NCBI GenBank assembly: GCA_025453925.1
Contig: JALOPK010000270.1
Coordinates: 1 to 5,065, forward strand
Length of the DNA: 5,065 nucleotides
Reading direction: 5' to 3'
DNA from: Candidatus Eiseniibacteriota bacterium
Lineage (GTDB): Bacteria > JAFGKV01
This document shows positions 1 to 5,065 of this stretch, in pieces. Every line of letters begins with the position of its first letter. The stretch's first letter is position 1. The position numbers and the translations under genes are program-made. The notes beneath the pieces were generated by a model. That model saw only the letters and a program-made list of their open reading frames with translations, was not told the origin of the DNA and ran no database searches.

Positions 1-381
1 CTGCTCAAGGCCGACGAATTGGCCCAGGCCCTGGACCTGGATGGTCACATTCCGATCTACGGGGTCTCTTTCGACCCCGGCGGCGCCAAGATCAAGCCGG
101 AGTCCAGGGACCAACTGGGGGAGATCGCCAAGCTCCTGCGCACCCGCACGACGCTGGCGCTGCATGTGGTCGGCCATACGGACAACCAGGGGGAGGAGGC
201 CAAGAACCTGGACCTGTCCCGGCGGCGGGCCGAGGCGGTCGTTGCGGCCCTCACCGGGGACTTCGCCGTCGATCCCACGCGCCTGATGGCCCACGGGCTC
301 GCCGGTCTGGCCCCGCTGACCTCCAACAGCGAAGAGGATGGCCGGGCCATCAACCGCCGCATCGAGTTGGTGGCCCGATAA
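1..381 (+). CDS. OmpA-family C-terminal domain protein, 5' end outside the window
   Basis: The frame is open from base 1 to the TAA at 379-381, giving 126 visible residues; the gene starts before the window. A TTG at 19-21 lies in the frame, but there is no reason to treat it as the start. The visible part is an OmpA/Pal/MotB-type peptidoglycan-binding domain. It opens with a YGVSFDPGGAKIKPES strand-helix segment, followed by VVGHTDNQG, the LSRRRAEAVVAAL helix, and the closing NRRIELV. In this family the Asp of HTD and the first Arg of NRRIE bind the diaminopimelate of peptidoglycan, and both are present. The protein therefore probably anchors an outer-membrane or lipoprotein partner to the cell wall in the periplasm. 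The DPGGAKIKPES opening resembles proteins with a separate N-terminal domain before OmpA, but that part is not visible. The family call is firm; the full architecture is unknown. Confidence 0.9.
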   Translation: MLKADELAQALDLDGHIPIYGVSFDPGGAKIKPESRDQLGEIAKLLRTRTTLALHVVGHTDNQGEEAKNLDLSRRRAEAVVAALTGDFAVDPTRLMAHGLAGLAPLTSNSEEDGRAINRRIELVAR

Positions 382-614
382 TCGAGCAGGGCCCTGCCCC
401 GCCCAGCCCAAGCCAGCCGATCTTGTGCGGGGCTGAAGACGCGGCGCTTCGTCCTGGGAGAAGCAGTTGGCCGCAAATGAACGCCAAATGATTCCACGGG
501 TTTCCTAAGACCTTCTCGGCACCCGGAAGGTGAGACGAACGCGAACGGTGTGTTCGGTGTGGGTAATAGTCAGCCCCTCGGGACAGGGGGTCCGCTCGGG
601 GGGATGGGCCGCAG

Positions 615-638
615 CTCCCCCTTCTTTCCCTGGGGGAG
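615..638. repeat. G/C-rich imperfect palindromic repeat
   Basis: CTCCCCC (615-621) pairs perfectly with GGGGGAG (632-638) around a 10-base loop. The reverse strand continues outward into a CCCTCATCCCTGACC-like tract (about 641-656). This layout, a CCCTCA-type lead followed by CTCCC/GGGAG arms, recalls a degenerate intergenic palindrome common in gammaproteobacterial genomes. That resemblance is from memory and is weak. It could also simply be a stable hairpin in the 3' region of the upstream OmpA gene. Confidence 0.35.
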
Positions 639-856
639 ACAGGTCAGGGATGAGGGTAGAGTCACGGCGTCAGCCACGACCCGTGGTCACTCGCCCACTC
701 CCCATGGCACAGGGCGGATCAGGCCCCAATGAAGGTCCACGACAGGGTGGCCGTGATGTGGGAGAAGGACCGCACCGCGTCTAGGGGCACGTCCATGCCC
801 AAGGAAGCCGAGGGAGCAAAGGTCAGGCAGCCGGCAGGAAGCCGGAATCAGCTCTC

Positions 857-879
857 GACTTGTGCCATGGGCACAGGTC
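857..879. terminator. Stable hairpin downstream of the PEBP gene
   Basis: A 10-bp stem (857-866 with 870-879, one T-G wobble) closes on a three-base ATG loop. It sits about 65 bases beyond the PEBP stop, on the downstream side for the - strand. A second small hairpin (CCGGC/GCCGG with an AGGAA loop) follows at about 829-850. Position suggests transcript-end or RNA-stabilising structures. There is no following T-run on the - strand, so factor-independent termination is not supported. Confidence 0.3.
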
Positions 880-943
880 AAGATCCCCGACCCGATACGC
901 CGATGTGGTTCATGCCCTCACACCGCCCCGGGCCGCAATTCGC

Positions 944-1495
944 TTACTGCCGTCCGTAGGTCGCGGTGAAGGAGGCCGTGCCCAGCGCGTTGGCGTTGAT
1001 CATGAAGCCCGCCAGCGCAGCGGTGGCATCGGCGGGGATCTCCAGCGTTTCGGCTTTCAATGCGTGCACGGTGAAGATGTAGCGGTGCGGCTTGTCGCCC
1101 TGCGGCGGGCACATGCCACCCCAGCCGGCAACGCCGTAGTCGATGCGCACATGGCTAGCGCCCTTGGGCAAGTTGGCATCACCCACGGCGCCGGCGTCTG
1201 GCTTGAGCGCAGAGACGTCAGCGGGCAGGTTGATGACAGACCAGTGCCACCAACCCGAGCCAGTGGGCGCGTCGGGGTCGTACACGGTCACGGCGAAGCT
1301 CTTGGCGCCAGCGGGGGCGCCGCTCCACTCCAAGGCTGGTGACTTGTTTTCGCCCGAACAGCCAAAGCCGTTGAACTCAAACTTCTTGTCGATCACGCTG
1401 TCGGCCTTGATGTCCGGGCTGCTGAGCCGAAATTCGCCGGCGTAGATAAGGGTGCCTGCGCTGATGAGCGCGCTGGCAAGCAAGGTGCGTTTCAT
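944..1495 (-). CDS. YbhB/YbcL-type PEBP (Raf kinase inhibitor-like) protein, exported
   Basis: The product has 183 residues, complete, and belongs to the phosphatidylethanolamine-binding protein family of the bacterial YbhB/YbcL branch. Family hallmarks are DPDAPTG (residues 73-79), the WWHW segment (82-85) with the anion-pocket His, and GWGGMCPPQGDKPHRY (124-139) leading into the YIFTVHAL strand. Residues 1-19 form a signal peptide: Lys-Arg, a hydrophobic stretch, and a likely cut after Tyr-Ala before GEFRLSS. It should therefore act in the periplasm, like YbcL. The start at 1493-1495 is supported by AGGAAG five bases upstream. The family binds small anionic or phospholipid-like ligands, but the physiological role of the bacterial members is poorly defined, so no substrate is assigned. 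It is transcribed in the same direction as the VOC gene 146 bases upstream of it. The family call is firm. Confidence 0.93.
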   Translation of the reverse strand: MKRTLLASALISAGTLIYAGEFRLSSPDIKADSVIDKKFEFNGFGCSGENKSPALEWSGAPAGAKSFAVTVYDPDAPTGSGWWHWSVINLPADVSALKPDAGAVGDANLPKGASHVRIDYGVAGWGGMCPPQGDKPHRYIFTVHALKAETLEIPADATAALAGFMINANALGTASFTATYGRQ

Positions 1496-1641
1496 CCCGC
1501 CTTCCTGAAGTCAAGTTGTGGAGCTGCCATGATGCAGCAGGTTTGATGGGGCGTGATGGGGCTTGAGCACGGGTCTTGCCACCACGCATCTGTGCATCGC
1601 ATGACGGATGCTTGGCTGCATCACATCACCCCATCGGCTTG

Positions 1642-2055
1642 TTACTGCATTGAGTGCAAACCGATCATATTGCCTTCGGTATCGTGAACCAGCGCAACAA
1701 AACCATATTCTCCGATGGTCATTTTGTCGTTACAGATGCGCCCACCGTTTTTGGCGGCACGCGCGGCGGTTACCCCGCAGTCGTCACAGCCGAAATACAC
1801 CAGAGTACCGCCGCTGCCCGGTTTGTAGCCATCCATTTTCACCAGCATTCCGCTTGCGCCCGGGGTTGTCATTTCCGTTTCGCTATCTTCCGGCATTGGA
1901 AAGCTCCACATTTCCATATTCGCTTCCTTGCTCATCTCATCGGTTGGAGGCGGCATCATCTTCAATTTGACTTCCAGTGTTGCTTCGTAGAAAGCTTTCG
2001 CGCGCGCCATGTCCTCTACGTAAATCTCGAACCAAACAACAGGATTGCTTTTCAT
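1642..2055 (-). CDS. VOC-superfamily (glyoxalase/bleomycin-resistance-like) protein
   Basis: The product has 137 residues, complete, and is a single-unit vicinal-oxygen-chelate protein. The N-terminal module has the usual strand-helix pattern (PVVWFEIYVEDMARAKAFYE, residues 5-24), with Glu10 at the place of the first metal ligand. The second module contains GGTLVYFGCDD (82-92) and ends in the typical FVALVHDTEGNMIGLHS strand (119-135), where DTEGN corresponds to the common DPEGN turn. The sequence resembles the 'predicted lactoylglutathione-lyase-related' group, whose substrates are mostly unknown, so no reaction is assigned. The start at 2053-2055 has GGAG seven bases upstream (2063-2066). 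The gene is clearly poorer in GC than its neighbours (about 53% by hand count over 1681-2040, against about 70% in sampled parts of the OmpA and PEBP genes), suggesting separate acquisition. No signal peptide or membrane segment is visible. Confidence 0.92.
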   Translation of the reverse strand: MKSNPVVWFEIYVEDMARAKAFYEATLEVKLKMMPPPTDEMSKEANMEMWSFPMPEDSETEMTTPGASGMLVKMDGYKPGSGGTLVYFGCDDCGVTAARAAKNGGRICNDKMTIGEYGFVALVHDTEGNMIGLHSMQ

Positions 2056-2201
2056 GGCATTGCTCCATTAGCGGGGAAATCGGGGGAAAGGCGTCAAATC
2101 CGAATGGCAGTGACTCAAGAATCGGTCAAGGATCAGGGTCAAAGGAGCTGAGCCACAAGGGTGGTGGGTCAGGTCGTTCTATTTTTTCTCACGAGCTGGG
2201 C

Positions 2202-2237
2202 GAAGTGCAAAAGGAAAGACCCCCCTTCCTTCACTTC
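2202..2237. terminator. Hairpin overlapping the stop of the small reverse-strand ORF
   Basis: GAAGTG (2202-2207) and AAGGAA (2211-2216) pair with TTCCTT (2226-2231) and CACTTC (2232-2237), giving 12 base pairs with a three-base bulge (CAA) and a nine-base loop. The stop codon of the small ORF (2231-2233) lies inside one arm. Read on the - strand, the hairpin ends that transcript, so it may act as a terminator or 3' stabiliser. No T-run follows on the - strand, which keeps confidence low. Confidence 0.35.
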
Positions 2238-2419
2238 TCGCCCTCGACCTGGGCGAGGGCCTCCTTGATGGCCGTCCGGATCAGGCCGCGGGCCTGCCCC
2301 TCGTCCAGATCCGGGACATCCCAAGCCATGATGCGGCAGTACTTACCAGCCATGTGGCGCACATCATCGACCACCTCCCGTTGTTAGAGGGCCATTTCGA
2401 TCTTCGCGGCGTCGAACAT
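2231..2419 (-). pseudogene. Small hypothetical protein frame interrupted by an in-frame TAA
   Basis: The frame begins at ATG 2417-2419 with a strong ribosome binding site (AGGAG, seven bases upstream) and runs 62 codons to TGA at 2231-2233. A TAA at 2384-2386 interrupts it. Before the TAA it encodes MFDAAKIEMAL; after it, in the same frame, it continues QREVVDDVRHMAGKYCRIMA, then WDVPDLDEGQARGLIRTAIK, and ends EALAQVEGEK. The second part looks like real protein: balanced composition, acidic helices, and high GC at third codon positions. I do not recognise the family. It could be a nonsense-mutated pseudogene, a sequencing error, or two frames with re-initiation at a GTG (2372-2374 or 2360-2362) or ATG (2351-2353). 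TAA is not a standard recoding codon, so readthrough is unlikely. The start sits about 180 bases downstream of the REP-like pair at 2599-2676. Confidence 0.5.
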
Positions 2420-2598
2420 GGGGTGACTCCTGCTGTTGGAACTGGCTGGGGCGTGCCGGATACCCGGCCCCGCCAGGGGCAGGATAGCCGATTCTCTGAC
2501 CGGGCACCGCCTACGGCTTGTCGGCGGAGCTGTTCGACCACGAACATCGCTCCTCATAGCGCCCGTCAGTTTCTCGCTCGCCGCCCGTGGCCGCACCG
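2420..2598. other. Gene-free stretch upstream of the small ORF
   Basis: Translations of this stretch in all frames are Arg/Pro-rich and show no domain. SulP homology does not resume here, although the gene to the right is truncated. A short G/C-rich inverted repeat (GCCCC/GGGGC, about 2467-2480) and a TATCCT that could serve as a -10 box for the small reverse-strand ORF are present. No matching -35 box is evident, so no promoter is claimed. Confidence 0.45.
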
Positions 2599-2676
2599 CT
2601 GTGGGCCGGACTTTAATCCGGCACAGCCGTGCAGGCAATCCCGGGCGCTGCTGTCCGGCCGAAGCCCGACGCACAC
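2599..2676. repeat. Inverted pair of REP-like palindromes (BIME-like)
   Basis: The left arm, CTGTGGGCCGGACTTTAATC plus CGGC (2599-2622), contains the hairpin GCCGGA/TCCGGC with a CTTTAA loop. The right arm (2653-2676), read on the opposite strand, has the related core GTCGGGCTTCGGCCGGAC preceded by GTGTGC. Both arms follow the general plan G-T-G/A-G-G then a CGGGCTT-type palindrome, known for gammaproteobacterial REP sequences, and they face each other across about 30 bases. The pair lies directly beyond the 3' breakpoint of the SulP relic. Arm similarity is moderate and judged by eye. Confidence 0.5.
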
Positions 2677-3052
2677 CCATGGGCATCGGAGTCGGCGAGC
2701 ATTGGCCACTTTAGTTATCGTCCTGGCGGTGGTCCTACGCGCATTGGACTCCGTGGCGGTCTGGGTTGGGCTGCCGTTGACCACGAGGGCCGCGCTCAGG
2801 ACCGCGGCCCTATTCGCGGCCGAGGGGCCGAGGATGTCGGCATCCTCATCGACCCACTCATGGTGGCGAGCGCCGAAGCTGCCGGCCGTGACGGCACTTT
2901 GAGCGATGATGATGACGAAGCCGGACCTAGCGATGGGTACCAGTCGCAACAGCTCATCCCAGGTCACCGCGGGCAGGGCGAAGTGCGGCAGGCCGCCAGG
3001 GACAGATCCGAGGGTGGCGATGCCAATGCCAAGGAAGTCGCAGGCGAAGCTT

Positions 3053-3058
3053 GCCGCA
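3053..3058. repeat. Target-site duplication, left copy (GCCGCA)
   Basis: This six-base direct repeat immediately abuts the left end of the inserted element at 3059. An identical GCCGCA abuts the right end at 3267-3272. Removing one copy together with the element rejoins SulP codons in frame (TTT GCG GCA AGC TTC on the - strand), which supports a true duplication. Confidence 0.75.
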
Positions 3059-3099
3059 GGGTGATTAGCGCCATGCCTCAGCCGGACCCAATGCGGCCT

Positions 3100-3124
3100 G
3101 TGGGAGTGGCGCCCTCGCCGCGCC
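3100..3124 (+). repeat. REP-like palindrome, left arm of the inserted element
   Basis: It begins GTGGGAG and continues into the hairpin region GGCGCCCTCGCC, in which a G/C palindrome closes on a CCCT loop. It matches the reverse complement of 3213-3237 at 23 of 25 positions; the differences are T for C at position 8 and C for A at position 24. The GTGGGAG head followed by a GC-rich imperfect palindrome is the layout of REP sequences in Pseudomonas-like genomes. Confidence 0.7.
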
Positions 3125-3212
3125 GCAGGATGCCGCGATCCTCGAACATGTGCGCCGCGCCAGCACACCGCGCCCGTCTGGGGCACCCGCTCTCCATCTG
3201 GAAGACAGCCCC

Positions 3213-3237
3213 GTCGCGGCGAGGGCGCCGCTCCCAC
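3213..3237 (-). repeat. REP-like palindrome, right arm of the inserted element
   Basis: Read on the - strand it begins GTGGGAGCGGCGCCCTCGCC. GCGGCG and CGCCGC form a perfect 6-bp stem around a CCCT loop. It faces the arm at 3100-3124 across about 88 bases, the arrangement called BIME or REPIN when both arms are REPs. Confidence 0.72.
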
Positions 3238-3266
3238 GGCAGGTTGAGCTTCGACGCTTATCGCCC

Positions 3267-3272
3267 GCCGCA
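3267..3272. repeat. Target-site duplication, right copy (GCCGCA)
   Basis: This is identical to 3053-3058 and directly abuts the element's right end at 3266. Together the two copies bracket the 208-bp insertion in the SulP gene. Confidence 0.75.
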
Positions 3273-4019
3273 AAGGCCCCCAGGACGAAGAACGCCATTG
3301 GGAGGCACGGCAGCAGGGAACGGGAGGAGAGGAGCAAACCCCCGACCAGCACCGCTGGGTACAGCGGGGACAGATGTACCTGCGGCGGGAGGAGCTCCCA
3401 GAACTGGCCGACGGTGTGTGGCGAGCCCACCGCGATGCCGAGTAGGCCACCCAGCATGGCGATACCAACCTGGACTCCCACCCCGGTCAGTAACCCGACG
3501 AGCACGGTGCACAACAGGGAATCGGCGAGGAAGCCAAGCCTGAAGATACGTGCCAACAGCAGCAGGCCCGCCGTGAGCAGGGCAACCACGGCGACCAGGT
3601 CCATGTAATGCGCGCTCTCGGTGGCAGCCATGCCGGACAACCCGCTGACGAAGTTGGGGGTGGTCGCCGAGTCCGCCGCCACCACCAAGTGCCGCGAGGA
3701 GCCGACGACCGCGAAGGCGACCAGGGGCAGGAACACGGTGTAGAGCCCGGTGACCACAGGCGTGCCAGCGATGCGCATGTAGCCGAGCACCTGGAGAATG
3801 TTCATGGACACCTGGGTGACGCCGCCCAGGGCATTGCGGAGCGCTCCGCGCAGGCACTGGGGCCGCAGGCCGTTGAATAGCCTCAGCCCCATCGCCAGAC
3901 TCCGGCACCGCCAACAGTACTTGCGGCGGACCGCCCGAGCGCGCTTCTGTGCCATCCTAGGCCCTGGTCCAATGCTTGCGGGTAGCGTCCGGACCAGCCA
4001 TCGGGTCGCCGGAATGTCC

Positions 4020-4895
4020 CTACTCGCCCGGCCCGGCATCGGCCGGGCTGGTTCCCCGGAACCCCTGCTCTTGTTCCGCCGCGTGGTACTTGGCGCGGAT
4101 CTGCGCCAAGTCTACCCGGGTCGGTGGGAGCTTGAGGTTCATATCCTCCATCGTGTCGACGATGATCCGGGAGATCGCGAGATTGCGAAACCACTTGTGG
4201 TTGGCGGGGATCACGTACCAGGGCGCGTGCTTGGTGCTGGTCTGCTCCAAGGCGTCCTGGTAGGCATCAACATAGTCGCTCCACAGTTCGCGCTCTGAGT
4301 AGTCCGACTCGCTGATCTTCCAGTTGCGCGCCGGGTCCTCTAGGCGCTGTTTGAAACGAGCAAGCTGCTCGTCGGGGCTGATGTGCAGAAAGAACTTCAG
4401 GATGCGCGTGCCGTTTTGCCTCAGGGTCCGCTCGAAGTCGTTGATCATCGTGTAGCGCTTGGACCACACCGACTTAGGCGCGAGCTTGTGCACCCGCACC
4501 ACCAGCACATCTTCGTAGTGCGAACGGTTGAAGATGACCACCTCCCCTTTCCCTGGTGTGCGCTGGTGGGCACGCCAGAGGAAATCGTGGGCGGCCTCGA
4601 TAGGGGTCGGCTGCCTGAAGCCGACGACCGCCGTCCCCTGCGGGTTCATGCCACTGAACAGGTGCCGCACGACGCCGTCCTTGCCGGCGGCATCCAGAGC
4701 TTGGAGCACGACGAGCAACGACTGCTCGGCGTTGGCGTAGAGGAGGTACTGGAGGGCATCCATGCGCGCAACATGCCTCTGGGTCTCCGCCAGTGCCTCC
4801 TCGCGGGACTCCGGCCCGCCGGTGTCGGAAGGATTGATCTTGGCCAGGCGGACCTTCTGGCCAGGCTCGACGACGAATTGCTTGCGGTGGTTCAT
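4020..4895 (-). CDS. ppk2: Class III PPK2 polyphosphate:nucleotide phosphotransferase
   Basis: The product has 291 residues, complete. PPK2 enzymes transfer phosphate from inorganic polyphosphate to nucleotides in the cytoplasm; class III members act on both AMP and ADP. The P-loop (Walker A) is ALDAAGKDG (residues 66-74), with Lys72. Walker B lies in VVIFNRSHYEDVLVVRVH (119-136). The lid region is around RLEDPARNWKIS (184-195), and WYVIPANHKWFRN (226-238) is the conserved C-terminal motif. Overall length and sequence closely recall the Meiothermus ruber class III enzyme. The frame extends to 4979, but the start at 4893-4895 (MNHRKQF) is chosen because it has GAGG seven bases upstream and matches the family's N-terminus. 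The class III substrate range is inferred from similarity. A hairpin lies in the last codons, and a repeat element begins about 85 bases upstream of the start. All expected motifs are present, so it should be active. Confidence 0.94.
   Translation of the reverse strand: MNHRKQFVVEPGQKVRLAKINPSDTGGPESREEALAETQRHVARMDALQYLLYANAEQSLLVVLQALDAAGKDGVVRHLFSGMNPQGTAVVGFRQPTPIEAAHDFLWRAHQRTPGKGEVVIFNRSHYEDVLVVRVHKLAPKSVWSKRYTMINDFERTLRQNGTRILKFFLHISPDEQLARFKQRLEDPARNWKISESDYSERELWSDYVDAYQDALEQTSTKHAPWYVIPANHKWFRNLAISRIIVDTMEDMNLKLPPTRVDLAQIRAKYHAAEQEQGFRGTSPADAGPGE
4029..4050. terminator. Strong hairpin in the last codons of ppk2
   Basis: GCCCGGC (4031-4037) pairs perfectly with GCCGGGC (4042-4048) around a four-base ATCG loop, extended by a wobble pair and a C-G pair. 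It lies inside the ppk2 3' end (stop at 4020-4022) and before the SulP relic. Without a following T-run it is more likely an attenuating or RNA-protecting structure than a full intrinsic terminator. Confidence 0.4.
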
Positions 4896-4980
4896 CTCGG
4901 CGCCTCGTGATGATAAACGGCTGGCCGTGCCCCGGCGCGAACTGTTCTGAGAGGATTTCGCGGAATACCCTGAGCGCAAA

Positions 4981-5065
4981 CAGTGATCGACGCCGAAGGC
5001 CAGCCGGCCGTGGCAGCGGCGCCCTCGCCGTGACCTGCCGTCTGCTAGAGGGGGAGCGGGCGCCC
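4981..5065 (-). mobile_element. Second, diverged copy of the 208-bp element, cut by the window end
   Basis: Read on the + strand from 4982, this aligns without gaps to the reverse complement of the first element from its right end (3265 inward). 19 of the first 29 positions match. In the REP-like 25-mer (5010-5034) 23 of 25 match; its first base is also the last of the 29. After a short unalignable step, 5040-5065 matches 21 of 26 positions down to about base 3181. The terminal repeat is poorly conserved (CAGTGATCGACG against GGGCGATAAGCG), so the exact end is uncertain. The strand given is opposite to the first copy's + orientation. It lies just upstream of ppk2, so it may affect that gene's transcription. 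Confidence 0.62.
5010..5034 (+). repeat. REP-like palindrome in the second element copy
   Basis: It begins GTGGCAGCGGCGCCCTCGCC and differs from the 3213-3237 arm (read on the - strand) at two of 25 positions: C for G at position 5 and T for C at position 22. The second change breaks one outer pair of the stem. It is the third member of this REP-like family within 2 kb. Confidence 0.7.

Follow-up and report, generated by a model that had tools for sequence, protein, structure and literature searches.

The sulfate-transporter (SulP) gene on the 5,065-nt contig C304 of assembly G000, which in its full length (positions 1-5065) is the window analysed here, is interrupted by a short segment, and this raises the question of whether the segment is a mobile element and to which family it belongs. 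The first-pass annotation had described a MITE-like insertion with a target duplication, and the repeats that it reported are indeed present: GCCGCA occurs at 3053-3058 and 3267-3272, and GGGTGATTAGCG (3059-3070) matches CGCTTATCGCCC (3255-3266) in inverted orientation at 10 of 12 positions. Taken alone, these bare repeat signals stand out only moderately: the window holds two cases of a 100-400-bp stretch whose inverted ends match at 10 or more of 12 positions and which is flanked by an exact 6-bp direct repeat, and such cases also turned up in 16 of 300 dinucleotide shuffles, with a mean of 0.06. Since such a signature is not overwhelming against chance, related copies were sought.

Within the element, the 23-mer GTGGGAGCGGCGCCCTCGCCGCG forms a REP-like palindrome that occurs in many beta- and gammaproteobacteria (at least 119 stretches). 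When genome contigs were scanned for pairs of exact REPs spaced 72-102 nt apart, there was no match, and it was the search with the single 23-mer that found the family. The whole element is present at L102 in a Lamprocystis purpurea MAG, which contains 72 element matches, mostly REPs. Seven or eight of them are long copies, which have differing flanks and align with their ends to 3060 and 3265; the closest of these are 76-84% identical to the window element. In the flank-inclusive alignment the conserved ends read GGTGATTAG..., while the base just outside them varies, and the window element is therefore placed at 3060-3265 (206 bp). Thus, the search for genome copies that had been suggested for defining the ends did yield copies, but the limits lie one base inside 3059 and 3266. 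Such copies at different sites, two on the window contig and seven or eight long ones in the Lamprocystis MAG, settle at the level of sequence comparison that the insertion is real.

The window element is small and non-coding and has no transposase gene of its own. Its left terminal inverted repeat, GGTGATTAGCGCCATGCCTCAGC (3060-3082, plus strand), agrees over all 23 bp with the family end pattern GGTGATTAGCGCYNNNCCTCAGC, while the right one, GGCGATAAGCGTCGAAGCTCAAC on the minus strand (3243-3265), has 5 mismatches to the pattern and is identical to the left end at 15 of 23 positions. A search for the pattern covered 146 genomes from the family to which the Lamprocystis MAG belongs, and in two of them (G161 and G130) the same ends occur as inverted pairs 1,099-1,101 bp apart around an IS1595-family transposase gene, which matches NF033547 (IS1595 transposase, E 1e-52) as well as PF12762 and PF12760. 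These elements are bordered by perfect 8/8 duplications, TTTTGAGA and TATTATTT. Moreover, when 34 candidate end pairs were compared, the identity of their flanks was highest at a length of exactly 8 bp (0.49 versus 0.24-0.32 at the other lengths from 4 to 12), so that the 6-bp duplication of the first-pass annotation was rejected, although the insertion itself stands. The duplication in the window consists of TGCCGCAG (3052-3059) and CGCCGCAA (3266-3273), which are identical at 6 of 8 positions; both outer positions are mutated, and the six matching bases are the GCCGCA reported first. The corresponding matches are 6/8 at L102 and, as read from the alignment, 7/8 at L138. Because of the five mismatches in the right end and the two in the duplication, the exact ends in the window would be uncertain without the relatives.

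Since its ends are common to transposase-bearing 1.1-kb IS1595 elements with 8-bp duplications, the window element, whose family had not been recognised before, can be assigned as an IS1595-type MITE. It is known that ISApl4 (IS1595) generates 8-bp repeats (PMC12561309), and for H. walsbyi a 165-bp IS1595 MITE with a 25-bp IR and an 8-bp DR has been listed together with ISHwa6 (PMC3852290). Neither the window's assembly nor the Lamprocystis MAG, both of which are incomplete, yielded an IS1595 transposase, and the putative mobilising enzyme is therefore deduced from other genomes.

Inside these ends lie two REP units, which the first-pass annotation did not mention: GTGGGAGTGGCGCCCTCGCCGCG (3100-3122, plus strand) and GTGGGAGCGGCGCCCTCGCCGCG (3215-3237, minus strand), which are inverted with their GTGG heads outward, 115 nt from start to start, and separated by a spacer (3123-3214) that is kept in the Lamprocystis copies. 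A head followed by a palindrome is also the form of the P. fluorescens REP GTGGGAGGGGGCTTGCCCCCGAT (PMC2817692), and an inverted doublet is the REPIN form (PMC3116915); the window pair, whose two units are inverted and each have a GTRG head and a palindrome, is of this kind. Y1_Tnp matches exist in the window's assembly and in relatives, none of them linked to the window's REP. Overall, the element is very probably, judging from its ends and its relatives, a non-autonomous IS1595-family MITE with an inverted pair of REP palindromes as its interior.

Also absent from the first-pass annotation was a second, truncated copy in inverse orientation at about 4982-5065, which is cut off by the contig end, is 79% identical over 76 nt and has its REP at 5010-5032. 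In the window's assembly, element matches are confined to this contig: the other 501 contigs have no copy, the REP is absent at up to three mismatches from the 3.9 Mb outside the window contig, and all three REP units of the assembly thus lie on its 5 kb. The relatives of this assembly (its class was represented by three genomes) have no element copies, and the search gave only a single REP-like match of 24 nt, which lies in an unrelated genome; this is what a misbinned contig would lead one to expect. Upstream of SulP lies a PPK2 polyphosphate kinase gene (4020-4892, minus strand), whose product is 52% identical to its counterpart in a genome of the same genus and up to 61% identical to those in the family that includes the Lamprocystis MAG, and the PPK2-SulP pair is adjacent in two genomes of that Chromatiaceae family as well (G083 and G129). 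The simplest reading is that the window contig was probably misbinned from a gammaproteobacterial, Chromatiaceae-like genome; horizontal transfer is the alternative origin, though not the simplest one. A plasmid search gave only short matches at chance level. The sole IMG/VR match, L017, lies on a phage contig, where the REP core recurs exactly (9693-9716) in a coding stretch rich in proline and alanine, with no second REP.

The consequences for the host gene can be read from its two fragments, which were placed correctly by the first-pass annotation. The N-terminal part of SulP (3274-4039, minus strand; homology from about 3931) is in a frame that continues into the element to 3065, and the downstream part (2740-3051, minus strand) is in another frame. 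Removal of 214 bases puts both in one frame, and this argument is unaffected by the corrected boundary, since 206 plus 8 and 208 plus 6 both give 214. The joined product aligns with L278 at 43% identity over 327 aa without a gap at the junction, and similarly with L280-L282; the intact SulP homologues, from Chromatiaceae, are proteins of about 43-47% identity, and no empty site was found at the nucleotide level. Furthermore, the similarity to SulP breaks off near 2740, and the window does not contain the roughly 240 C-terminal residues that are lacking. The gene is therefore broken twice, and it has lost about its last 240 codons at the 3' end independently of the insertion. For another point, the insertion had been called fairly recent, which we do not uphold: the terminal repeats and duplication of the window copy are decayed in comparison with the 22-23/23 and 8/8 of intact relatives, the nearest long copies are no closer than the values given above, and SulP has also lost its 3' end. 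From these sequences the insertion is not clearly recent.

Presumably, the roughly 23-bp ends were bound by a DDE transposase of the IS1595 family, supplied in trans, which moved the whole unit into SulP with an 8-bp duplication; the insertion would have shifted the frame so that the protein ends inside the element. The REP pair would have travelled as a passenger, which could be a substrate of a RAYT-type transposase or a hairpin, and the event would be old enough for the ends, the duplication and the gene to have decayed.

Other explanations were considered. The inner pair, with its GTGG heads, palindromes and outward inverted arrangement, fits REPs well, REPs without terminal repeats are present in the same Lamprocystis genome, some of them paired 63 nt apart, and Y1_Tnp genes are common in related genomes; it might thus be proposed that the unit is a REPIN that was moved by a RAYT (Y1/HUH) transposase and that the outer inverted and direct repeats are incidental. 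However, homology reaches 40 nt (left) and 28 nt (right) past the REPs, up to the ends shared with IS1595, and the 8-bp duplications abut these ends and not the REPs. The REPs of the composite are also spaced at 115, whereas ordinary pairs in the Lamprocystis genome are spaced at 63, and the MAG has only a sub-threshold Y1_Tnp match, which makes such a REPIN improbable.

It is very improbable that the element is a MITE of an unrelated family with a chance likeness to IS1595 at its ends: the divergent right end and the lack of a transposase in the same assembly would agree with this, but the left 23 bp correspond exactly to the pattern that bounds IS1595 elements with the same duplication length. 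That repeats and frame shift arose with no insertion at all, for example by decay or assembly error, might be argued from the shuffles and from a SulP gene decayed anyway; nevertheless, full-length homologous copies at other loci refute it, the junction is gapless against intact homologues, and we give it hardly any credence.

IS1595-type MITEs with REP pairs inside also occur in other Chromatiaceae genomes. In G094, ends of this type enclose a different REP pair (GTAGGAGCGGCGCCCTCGCCGCG) in a MITE of 138 bp, two copies of which are 96% identical and have perfect 8-bp duplications (ATTACTTA and TTTCTCAT); the composite therefore moved as an IS1595-type MITE. An IS1595-type MITE in G202 encloses another REP pair (GTGGGAGCGGCCTCCGGCCGC type), and one in G201 apparently also encloses a different pair. 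TIR-flanked copies with no recognisable REPs exist at L208 and L247; an element of this kind can therefore be a MITE without the REP pair. In addition, at L244 (202-519, G186), which has a perfect 8-bp duplication, and at L249 (G060), these ends enclose other palindromes (CACGCCCTTTCAGGGCT and CCCAGGGCGTTGCCCTGGG) that are not REPs. We also observed a second composite of a REPIN within a palindrome, with unrelated ends, in which a recurrent inverted repeat of about AACCCAGATTRTCCATTRGA...CATTCCAATGGAYAATCTGGGTT surrounds REP pairs in Sulfuricella/Sulfurimicrobium and a related MAG (L034, L036, L040, L042, L065, L072, L088 and L115). Such nesting has precedent, since REP dimers within palindromes are described for A. 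variabilis and H. neapolitanus (PMC3733652). It is possible, and we propose it only tentatively, that REPINs have repeatedly been enclosed by IS1595-type MITEs, that the differing Chromatiaceae REP pairs are independent captures, and that this is a second, RAYT-independent route for REPs; one ancestral nest with diverging interiors is the alternative.

The window element resembles IS1595 insertion sequences and MITEs, such as that of H. walsbyi (PMC3852290), in its shared ends with terminal repeats of about 23-25 bp, 8-bp target duplication, small size and lack of coding capacity, but it differs from them in carrying an inverted REP pair and in being a decayed copy. It resembles REPINs and GTRG-headed REP dimers (PMC3116915, PMC2817692) in the GTGG head before a G+C-rich palindrome and in two inverted, outward-headed, hairpin-forming units, but the pair lies within MITE ends, would have moved with them, and has no identified partner RAYT. 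The dimers of Anabaena variabilis and Halothiobacillus neapolitanus are likewise regularly embedded in a larger palindrome, which does not appear to be tied to an IS family there, whereas here IS1595-type ends and 8-bp duplications are present. IS1595 MITEs and REP dimers in palindromes are thus each known, while their joint mobility appears to be little described; the open-access literature, as far as it was covered, yielded no paper in which IS1595 MITEs are combined with REPINs. A previously unrecognised repeat can now be named, with its ends and duplication fixed, and the nested combination recurs in related genomes with different inserts. Two kinds of miniature mobile DNA that are usually treated separately and depend on unrelated enzymes (DDE and HUH) travel here as one unit. 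This matters for understanding the spread of REPs from site to site and from genome to genome, and for the way in which their copies should be counted.
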